Origin: an uncultured Kordiimonas sp.
Lineage (GTDB): Bacteria > Pseudomonadota > Alphaproteobacteria > Sphingomonadales > Kordiimonadaceae
DNA length: 64,000 bases
Direction: 5' to 3'
Assembly: GCA_947503625.1 (NCBI GenBank)
Contig: CANNEK010000003.1
Coordinates: 620,001-684,000 of the forward strand
The notes under the pieces were generated by a model. It had not been told where the DNA came from. It did no database searches and saw nothing but the letters and a program-made list of their open reading frames with translations. Of this stretch, positions 2,345-37,758 are shown one piece after another. Position 1 is the first letter of the stretch, and every line of letters begins with the position of its first letter. Position numbers and translations under genes: made by a program.

Positions 2345-3442
2345 TTATCCGCTGGTTTTCTTTCTGACCCGTGGTTTTTTGATCTCGAAACGCCAGAAAC
2401 TCCATACTGCAAGGGTGCCAAGTAGCGCCAGCACAAGGCCAACCAGTGTCAGCGCCAGTTGGTAAAGCAACCCACCCACTTTCGCCGAATGTAGCGGGTA
2501 CAGCATATTGTAGACCTTAAGGCCAAGCGGATGCGTTTCCGCGCTGCGGGCCTCTATCAGCTCACTGGTTACCGGGTCGAACCACATCAACGTTCGGCCA
2601 TTAGGCAACCATTCGCTTGGCAGTTTGATCCTTAGCGACAATGGGCCATCGCCGCGCGGGAATATGGCCAGCCGCACGTCGCCCTCAGGGAACGTATCTT
2701 TCGCCGCGGTAAGCACCTTCTGCCAATTGATCATCTGATGGTCGAAGCGTTCGCCGCCGCTCTCATAGACTGGCGGGCTAAGCGCCGCAATAATTTCGCC
2801 CGGCGCAGACAGCGGCGACAGCAACACAGTCGCCACAGGGCGAAAGATCATCATGATGCCTGTGAGCATCACAATCACCAGAAGCGGCGCAGCAATAACG
2901 CCGGCGTCCCGGTGGTGCCTGATGATATCATTGCGGCGCAAACTGCGCGGCCAGAGCCTGAAGTTGAACTGGCGGCGAGCACGCCACCACAGAATTGTGC
3001 CGGTAACAACAAACGCCAATCCAACGAGGCCCGCAATGCCGCTGATCACTTCACCCGTCTCGCCAAACAGCAGATGATGGTGCAAGTCAAACAACCAGAG
3101 TTCCAACCGGTCACTGAGAGCAGCCCAACTTTCCGTCATCGCGCCGGCGCGGTCAGCATAATACCCCTGCCCGCCACCAAGGTTTACCCCGTAGATACCA
3201 ACAGTGTCTGACGGGAAAACGATGTAGCTTGGCGCGGCTGCATTGTCTGCACCAATCCGGCCCAACGCATCAGCAGACTCGGCCGTTGCAAGATGTGTAG
3301 ACAGCGTGTTTGACGCCCCCTCCACCGAAAACCGGAGCCACGCATCCCGCCAGACCAGCAGGCTGCCCGAAAGACCGAGCACCGCCAGCAACAACCCGAT
3401 AAACCCGCCTGTCCAGCGGTGAAGCGCCCGGACGACCTGCAC
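2345..3442 (-). CDS. PepSY-associated transmembrane protein
   Basis: The 365-residue membrane protein opens with ALHRWTGGFIGLLLAVLGLSG, the hallmark of PepSY-associated TM (iron-uptake reductase-like) proteins. Later membrane segments carry His-rich edges (LFDLHHHLLFGE, HHRDAG), and a fourth hydrophobic helix lies near residue 335. These His residues may coordinate haem, as proposed for inner-membrane ferric-siderophore reductases of this family. It starts at GTG 3442 with GGGAGGG about seven bases upstream, directly after the TonB receptor stop at 3454, so the two are an operon. The likely role is reductive release of iron, or handling of the imported chelate. The fold is confident; the substrate is inferred from its partner. 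Confidence 0.85.
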   Translation of the reverse strand: MQVVRALHRWTGGFIGLLLAVLGLSGSLLVWRDAWLRFSVEGASNTLSTHLATAESADALGRIGADNAAAPSYIVFPSDTVGIYGVNLGGGQGYYADRAGAMTESWAALSDRLELWLFDLHHHLLFGETGEVISGIAGLVGLAFVVTGTILWWRARRQFNFRLWPRSLRRNDIIRHHRDAGVIAAPLLVIVMLTGIMMIFRPVATVLLSPLSAPGEIIAALSPPVYESGGERFDHQMINWQKVLTAAKDTFPEGDVRLAIFPRGDGPLSLRIKLPSEWLPNGRTLMWFDPVTSELIEARSAETHPLGLKVYNMLYPLHSAKVGGLLYQLALTLVGLVLALLGTLAVWSFWRFEIKKPRVRKKTSG

Positions 3443-35120: not shown

Positions 35121-36044
35121 ATGGAAGAACAGTTGGAATTTTCAACCGCAAACAATGCGCCGCCGCCGTTTCTGGTGCGGCTGCCGAAAATCATATCCAG
35201 CCCGTTTTTGTTCTGCACGCCCCACAGTGGTCGTTATTACCCGGTTGGCTTTCGCCAGCAGTCGCCGCTGGGCGCGCGAGAGCTGCGTTTATCGGAAGAC
35301 GCTTTTGTTGATGAACTGTTTGAAGGTGTGGTGCAAACCGGCGCAACCGAATTGATCGCCACACATGCCCGTGCTTTTGTTGACCTGAACCGCGCGCCGA
35401 ACGAACTGGAACCTGACATGTTCTCGGGGGAACATGGTGCCTATGAGGTTGATCTTAACAACAGGGTCAAGGCTGGCCTTGGTGTAATACCGCGCATCAT
35501 CGGCGAAGGCATGCCGATCTACGACCGGAAAATTCCTATTCGCGAAGCGTTCAAACGGCTCGATGATGTCTATCACCCCTATCACAATGAAGTTTCCGGA
35601 CTGCTGATGGCCCGGCACAGGAAGTATGGCAGCTCGGTACTTATTGATTGCCATTCCATGCCTTCAGGGCCGGAGCTGGGCCGGCGCCGGCAATCGCAAC
35701 CCGACATCGTGCTTGGAGACTGCTGGGGCACCAGTTGCTCGCGCGAGTTAACCGGGTTGGCCGAGCGACTGCTGCTGGAAGCCGGCTTCAGGGTCCGTCG
35801 CAATATCCCTTATGCCGGTGGTTTTGCCACACGGCACTACGGCGCGCCTTCCCGCGGATGCCATGCCCTTCAGATCGAGATCAATCGCAGCCTTTACATG
35901 GATGAACGCCGCGTTGAGAAGCTGCCCCATTTCGACGAAGTCGGGCAAAGGTTGCGCGGCTTCAGTAAAGAGCTGCTTGGCAACTATGACACACTGCCAA
36001 AAGATGCGGTGGCGAAAGATACGGTGGCAAAAGCAGCGGAATAG
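35121..36044 (+). CDS. N-formylglutamate amidohydrolase
   Basis: The 307-residue protein fits the FGase family. CTPHSGRYYPVGF near the N-terminus and HNEVSGLLMARHRKYG, LIDCHSMPS and GGFATRHYGAPSRG are zinc-site and substrate motifs. It cleaves N-formyl-L-glutamate to formate and glutamate at the end of one histidine degradation route; no hut genes are nearby, so a formyl amino-acid salvage role is also possible. The start is ATG 35121. The C-terminal repeat-like KDAVAKDTVAKAAE is low-complexity. Confidence 0.87.
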   Translation: MEEQLEFSTANNAPPPFLVRLPKIISSPFLFCTPHSGRYYPVGFRQQSPLGARELRLSEDAFVDELFEGVVQTGATELIATHARAFVDLNRAPNELEPDMFSGEHGAYEVDLNNRVKAGLGVIPRIIGEGMPIYDRKIPIREAFKRLDDVYHPYHNEVSGLLMARHRKYGSSVLIDCHSMPSGPELGRRRQSQPDIVLGDCWGTSCSRELTGLAERLLLEAGFRVRRNIPYAGGFATRHYGAPSRGCHALQIEINRSLYMDERRVEKLPHFDEVGQRLRGFSKELLGNYDTLPKDAVAKDTVAKAAE

Positions 36045-36077: not shown

Positions 36078-37433
36078 TTAGAAGGTAAATGTGAGTGCCG
36101 AGTATGCAAAGAACGGATCACCGTTTCCTGTTGCGTTTGGTGCGTTCCTGAAAAACTCTCCGTTCTGGAAAGACACAGCGCCAATTTCAAGCCGAACCTT
36201 GTTTTCAACAAGCGGCACCCTTGCACGCATCTGAATTTGGTGCCCGGCAAATGTGCCAGACGAACCGCTGATATCCCTCACGCCAATACGGCCAAATGCA
36301 TCGGTGGCGGAATCCAGCCATACTGCCTGCCAATGGACCATCAAATCCCAACTGCCGCCAGCGTTATAGAGCACGCGCGCACCGGGCGCAGAAAGGTTGT
36401 TGCGATGAACCATTGTGAAAAGCCCCGTTGGGCCGAGGTCACCGCGGATCGGACCGAAAATCGGGTCAAACAGGCCGGAGCGGTTGTCGTTCGGGTCATC
36501 ATCGCCCGACGCAAAATCATAGGTGGCGGCAACATTCCATCCCGTATCGATCAGGCTGTAGCCAACCTCTGCATGGAGAAAACCTGCCCTCACTTTCTGA
36601 TCCTGGACGTCAAGCGGACTGTTGGTTTCTCTGCGCTCGCCGCGCTGGACCGCACCTTCCACATCAAAATCCCACTTGCCGGATGCCCGTTTCTTCTGGA
36701 ACTGCGCCCCCAGCGTGACCAAACTGCGGTCTTGGCTTTCCTGTTTGCCGGGAGTGTCATCTTCCTGAAGCCAGACAGCATAGCCACGTGATGTCACGCC
36801 CGATATCAACGTGGGGCTTTCTGCAAAAAATCCGCCAAGCCACAGGTCATCGCTAAAGCGATCATGTTTAACTTCATTGTCTTCCAGTGACGCCGTGTCA
36901 TTGGGTCGGATTTGCCCGGGCATCATCCAGAAAGCATCCAGCCGGTTGCCATCACCAGACTGAACATGTGCCCGCGCGCCCATGAAGGTGAAGACCGTGT
37001 TACGATAGCCGTTGCGACCAATTATTCTTCCGCTGCCCAGCGGCCATGTAAAACGGCCCGCCTGAAAACCAAGCTCTCCGCCACCATCAAAAACGTCCTG
37101 CTGGCGGTAACGCACAAAATACTGGATAGGCTCGACAGCATTGACCATACCTGGGGTCAGATTACGAGGGTCATCGGCATCGTAGGTCCGGGAATCCATC
37201 AGTTCAGCGCCCAGCTCCCAGTTACCGTTTGTCGCCTGAAGCACGAGGTTGGTGCGAAAAGAAACAAGTGCCTCATCGTCTGTGCGTCCGGGCCGGAAAG
37301 AATTATCAATATATTCGTAGAGTGTCCGTTGGGCACCGGTCAGGCCAACCGACCAATCGTCATCCGCTGCAACAGCAGGTATTGCAGGGCTCGCCATTAT
37401 AGCCAGAGCGCAGACAACACTTATATTTTTCAT
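36078..37433 (-). CDS. Alginate-export-family outer-membrane porin
   Basis: From ATG 37433 (GGAAGGGA eight bases upstream) the precursor has 451 residues: a signal peptide (cleavage near AVA-ADD), then a beta-barrel ending in ALTFTF. Motifs RFTWPLGSGRIIGRNGYRN, FDFASGDDDPNDNRSGLFDP-like and FTMVHRNNLSAPG match the alginate-export (AlgE-like) family. Related proteins serve as general or oligosaccharide porins rather than true alginate exporters. It converges with the formylglutamate amidohydrolase, and no alginate biosynthesis genes are in the window. Substrate unknown. Confidence 0.86.
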   Translation of the reverse strand: MKNISVVCALAIMASPAIPAVAADDDWSVGLTGAQRTLYEYIDNSFRPGRTDDEALVSFRTNLVLQATNGNWELGAELMDSRTYDADDPRNLTPGMVNAVEPIQYFVRYRQQDVFDGGGELGFQAGRFTWPLGSGRIIGRNGYRNTVFTFMGARAHVQSGDGNRLDAFWMMPGQIRPNDTASLEDNEVKHDRFSDDLWLGGFFAESPTLISGVTSRGYAVWLQEDDTPGKQESQDRSLVTLGAQFQKKRASGKWDFDVEGAVQRGERRETNSPLDVQDQKVRAGFLHAEVGYSLIDTGWNVAATYDFASGDDDPNDNRSGLFDPIFGPIRGDLGPTGLFTMVHRNNLSAPGARVLYNAGGSWDLMVHWQAVWLDSATDAFGRIGVRDISGSSGTFAGHQIQMRARVPLVENKVRLEIGAVSFQNGEFFRNAPNATGNGDPFFAYSALTFTF

Positions 37434-37595
37434 CAAGAAATCCCTTCCGCCCCCTCTGTCTGGTTTTATTGCCTGGCACTGAATAAATCGTTAAGGCGTT
37501 AACCGGACATGGCTGCGACCATCGAAATCAGGCGATAAAGCACGACAAGAATGCGACCGGTAGCAACAGAACACGGTTTCAGCATAAATAAATAC

Positions 37596-37625
37596 AAAAA
37601 AAAGGCCACGCTTGCGCGTGGCCCA
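37596..37625 (-). terminator. Orphan leftward terminator
   Basis: Read on the minus strand, GGCCACGC and GCGTGGCC form a perfect 8-bp stem with a four-base loop, followed by eight T. No protein gene on the minus strand lies upstream of it, so it probably ends a small RNA. The opposite direction has no T-run. Confidence 0.85.
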
Positions 37626-37746
37626 GGCTCAGGGAGGAAACGCCCACGGAGGGCATTGACGAGCACTGCCCGTCACATACTAAGATAAAAGCTCGGAAGC
37701 GCTTTGCCAAGGGTGTGGTAATGTAACGAATAGTTGAGCGATATGT
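37596..37746 (-). ncRNA. Candidate trans-acting small RNA with anti-Shine-Dalgarno motif
   Basis: A perfect -10 hexamer TATAAT (37758-37753) and a strong terminator (37623-37596) bracket about 150 nt. On the transcript, a hairpin at 37674-37658 (GACGNGC arms, one mismatch) and one at 37654-37642 (GCCC/GGGC, loop UCCGU) precede the single-stranded UUUCCUCCCU (37640-37631), and then the terminator. CCUCC is complementary to ribosome-binding sites and is the seed of several alphaproteobacterial small RNAs. No convincing open frame exists. Its start, -35 box and expression are inferred. Confidence 0.55.
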
Positions 37747-37752
37747 CATAGC

Positions 37753-37758
37753 ATTATA
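37753..37758 (-). promoter_or_regulatory. -10 box for the candidate small RNA
   Basis: The minus strand reads TATAAT, a perfect sigma-70 -10 element, about seven bases before the expected start of the candidate RNA. The -35 region is not convincing. Confidence 0.45.

Follow-up and report, generated by a model that had tools for sequence, protein, structure and literature searches.

The question raised by this locus is whether the promoter-like box and the strong terminator on its minus strand delimit a small RNA gene and, if so, an RNA of which kind. The locus lies in a window of 64,000 nucleotides, the whole stretch of DNA analyzed here, from an uncultured Kordiimonas sp., and the initial annotation had read it as an undescribed small RNA that acts in trans through an anti-Shine-Dalgarno motif. 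Judged from its sequence, the minus-strand feature is a genuine sRNA gene, the Kordiimonas copy of MmgR/SisA (RF00519 suhB, alphaR8 family). The RNA is thus not undescribed, since its family is known (PMC12559287, PMC7143759); the trans-acting reading is supported by the family match, by its occurrence among relatives, by an invariant seed and by a conserved promoter of its own.

The Rfam search that had been proposed as a check returned RF00519 (suhB/mmgR, Makes More Granules Regulator) on the minus strand, from 37661 to 37589, at 56 bits, where the gathering score is 41, and the match covers all 77 positions of the model from end to end. The alphaR8 sRNAs are defined by a 10-nt single strand, 5'-UUUCCUCCCU-3', that follows a weak hairpin and is itself followed by a terminator; in most species they are linked to an N-formylglutamate amidohydrolase gene (PMC12559287). 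The Kordiimonas element fits this description on every point: it scores above the cut-off, carries the single-stranded decamer 3' of a weak hairpin, ends in a Rho-independent terminator and has a PF05013 amidohydrolase gene nearby (Table 1), with a porin gene in between. Anti-hemB, SorY, isrD and the betaproteobacterial toxic sRNA were also considered, and fell far below their Rfam cut-offs; what they have in common with the element is CCUCC and a terminator only.

Table 1. Features of the sRNA locus and its neighbourhood (window coordinates)
Feature	Positions	Strand	Basis or remark
MmgR/alphaR8-family sRNA gene	37596..37674	-	inferred transcript of ~78-79 nt; RF00519 match and alignment of relatives
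Sigma-70-like promoter, TTGGCA (37710..37705)-N17-TATCTT (37687..37682)	37682..37710	-	CTTGG...TATCTT largely conserved in aligned relatives
TATAAT box	37753..37758	-	present, but lacks conservation; unlikely to be the sRNA promoter
Stem-loop 1, GACGGGC-AGU-GCUCGUC	37658..37674	-	fold of the 78-nt RNA
Stem-loop 2, AAUGCCCUCCGUGGGCGUU	37639..37657	-	fold; pairing in 97% of cells, with a single doubly changed pair
Family 10-mer seed UUUCCUCCCU (anti-Shine-Dalgarno)	37631..37640	-	unpaired in predicted fold; invariant in 25 aligned relatives
Intrinsic terminator, 9-bp stem + T8	37596..37624	-	fold; 98% of cells paired
N-formylglutamate amidohydrolase gene, usual alphaR8 neighbour	35121..36044	+	PF05013, E 1.9e-70; close to the sRNA in many relatives
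Alginate-export-type porin gene, separating the sRNA from the amidohydrolase gene	36078..37436	-	PF13372; synteny

Three stem-loops are predicted for an RNA of ~78 nt. The two that precede the terminator (SL1 and SL2) correspond to the two hairpins noted earlier, and the anti-Shine-Dalgarno motif is single-stranded in the predicted fold, as had been claimed. The terminator had been described as an 8-bp stem with eight Ts; the T8 run is as described (37603..37596), but the stem has 9 bp. This is the strongest among nine terminator-like matches in 4 kb. A 75-nt stretch folds at -29.1 kcal/mol, lower than all 200 shuffles (z -3.6).

Of 59 related genomes, 57 have a match to RF00519, which in 52 of them exceeds the gathering score. 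In the comparative alignment that had been suggested, the seed and its flanking bases, as far as the terminator stem, are invariant in 25 relatives. These sequences were picked by the seed, so that its invariance is partly a matter of selection; loci gathered by the covariance model (15-locus alignment) likewise show an invariant seed. The helices of SL2 and the terminator keep 97.8% of their pairs, with three doubly changed pairs as against 0.3 in shuffles, counts that cover these two helices because MAFFT misaligns the SL1 region. Hairpins are predicted at the SL1 position in many, not all, relatives, and their sequences differ. Exact copies of a 30-base core occur in Kordiimonas, Pseudokordiimonas and Eilatimonas records.

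The extent of the RNA depends on which promoter is used. Most likely it is ~78 nt long, starting near 37674 and ending at 37596, because the proximal promoter is largely conserved among the aligned relatives and the TATAAT box is not; the distance from promoter to terminator agrees with this length. Conservation was judged on 15 aligned loci from the genus and the family (Kordiimonadaceae): the TATCTT position reads TACCTT or TATGTT in a few relatives, whereas the columns at 37753-37758 show no conservation across the 15 loci. The perfect -10 box of the initial annotation is thus present, but not conserved, and the extent of ~150 nt derived from it is probably wrong. A long RNA made from the TATAAT box, alone or alongside the short form, could also draw on a 9-of-12 promoter match (ATGACA-18-TACATT) upstream; the conserved proximal promoter, together with the length of Sinorhizobium meliloti MmgR, 77 nt with three stem-loops (PMC7143759), makes it quite improbable. 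Upstream of the -35 box (37715-37745, minus strand), a block of approximately TTCAAC-N-TTCGTGAC is conserved in the genus and is possibly the site of a regulator.

The porin gene lies on the same strand, with its start ~160 nt beyond the terminator, an arrangement which would suit a 5'-leader attenuator in which transcription ends at 37596 unless a signal permits read-through. However, conservation of the sRNA does not extend to its linkage with the porin gene, which adjoins it in only 2 of 30 homologous loci (that of the window and L022), and many relatives have instead the amidohydrolase gene at this place, convergent with the sRNA. Of the loci examined, about half have the amidohydrolase gene beside the sRNA, and about half a metallophosphoesterase gene (38092). 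In one lineage, therefore, the porin gene seems to have been inserted between the sRNA and its amidohydrolase neighbour. This argues both against a porin leader, a reading we consider very unlikely, and against taking the placement as evidence of targeting, as had been proposed. The porin mRNA was also assessed as a special target and set aside: pairing of the unpaired seed region with its leader is predicted at -17.8 kcal/mol, which is not distinctive, and a broader seed ranks this leader eighth of 56 crudely predicted window genes. By its genomic distribution, the link between porin and sRNA appears incidental. Nor does the region hold a sizeable gene, in agreement with the earlier reading: the largest ORFs overlapping it are of 55-56 aa. 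Two such overlapping ORFs, of 55 and 56 aa on the minus strand, could in principle encode a small protein, a reading to which we attach practically no weight, given the match to an RNA family and the length changes among relatives, in loops and in SL1, that would break the frames.

For the sRNA gene, a mode of action can be proposed from its homologs and from seed matches in the genome. Transcription of the minus strand would proceed from its own sigma-70-type promoter (37710..37682), start at about 37674 and stop at the U-run of the terminator (37596). With Hfq, whose gene is present in the Kordiimonas genome, UUUCCUCCCU, left single-stranded between SL2 and the terminator, would pair with extended Shine-Dalgarno sequences in mRNAs and so prevent translation, and several TonB-dependent receptor mRNAs would be among the likely targets. 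Such Hfq-assisted blocking of the ribosome-binding site is likely, by analogy with SisA of Caulobacter. We hold the account as a whole, an alphaR8 homolog with its own promoter, an Hfq-aided anti-Shine-Dalgarno seed and TonB receptors as likely targets, with high confidence.

The pattern GGGAGGAA-N2-9-ATG occurs at 16 sites in the genome, three of which are at the starts of genes for Plug-domain proteins (TonB receptors), of which the genome encodes 49. Among the sites listed for GGGAGG-N4-10-ATG, 6 of 99 precede Plug-domain genes, and with a control Shine-Dalgarno pattern none of 23 sites precedes a TonB receptor gene; the counts are small, and the binomial values for the enrichment assume 3700 genes. 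A preference of TonB receptor genes for strong Shine-Dalgarno sequences may alone explain the enrichment, and the seed matches support, but do not prove, a SisA-like regulon. The receptor leaders at C1:647864, C1:946084 and C3:857840 of the genome (G000) are candidates for direct targets. The exact complement of the decamer, AGGGAGGAAA, as would be expected of a fully matching target or of a sponge resembling CrfA, occurs genome-wide only on the antisense strand of the sRNA itself; targets would thus pair imperfectly. Within the window, the strongest crude pairing with the seed region is that of the gene at 2345-3442 (-), with the leader TTAGGGAGGGCGG before a GTG start.

A second, weak match to RF00519 (36 bits, below the cut-off) lies directly 3' of the stop codon of an ammonium-transporter-like (amtB) gene (L002:1501-1570; G000:C1:159299-159368, +) and consists of a hairpin, CUCUUCCCAAACUU and a terminator. 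About six Kordiimonas genomes have a similar arrangement after amtB; in others, another pyrimidine-rich motif is found at that position. From its layout, this element is a candidate 3'-UTR-derived sRNA. It is conceivable, though we think it rather unlikely, that the alphaR8 regulon of Kordiimonas is centred on TonB receptors and not on PHB phasins, with a diverged anti-Shine-Dalgarno RNA from the amtB 3' UTR beside it; if so, that RNA would link nitrogen status to the TonB-receptor class of targets.

The Kordiimonas RNA resembles S. meliloti MmgR in its end-to-end match to the covariance model, the decamer seed, the terminator, a predicted length of ~77 nt and the three stem-loops. MmgR limits PHB granules via phasins; the Kordiimonas genome has PhaC, but a search of it for Phasin_2 proteins gave none, so that the regulon probably differs from that of MmgR and the phasin role may not apply. 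With SisA, the alphaR8 RNA of Caulobacter crescentus, it shares an identical decamer and the amidohydrolase linkage, and in both the seed has matches in the leaders of TonB receptors. Four siblings occur in Caulobacter, along with the CrfA sponge, with which SisA pairs aided by Hfq; Kordiimonas has one copy above the Rfam cut-off and one weak candidate, and the search for the exact decamer complement identified no CrfA-like sponge in its genome. In Caulobacter, pairing of the SisA decamer near the start codon represses a TonB-dependent receptor mRNA, as proven by compensatory mutation. No new kind of RNA is described here; rather, a known and well-conserved alphaproteobacterial sRNA, with its promoter and gene neighbourhood, is extended to Kordiimonas, and the alphaR8 family may control TonB receptors more widely than in Caulobacter, where this role is proven.
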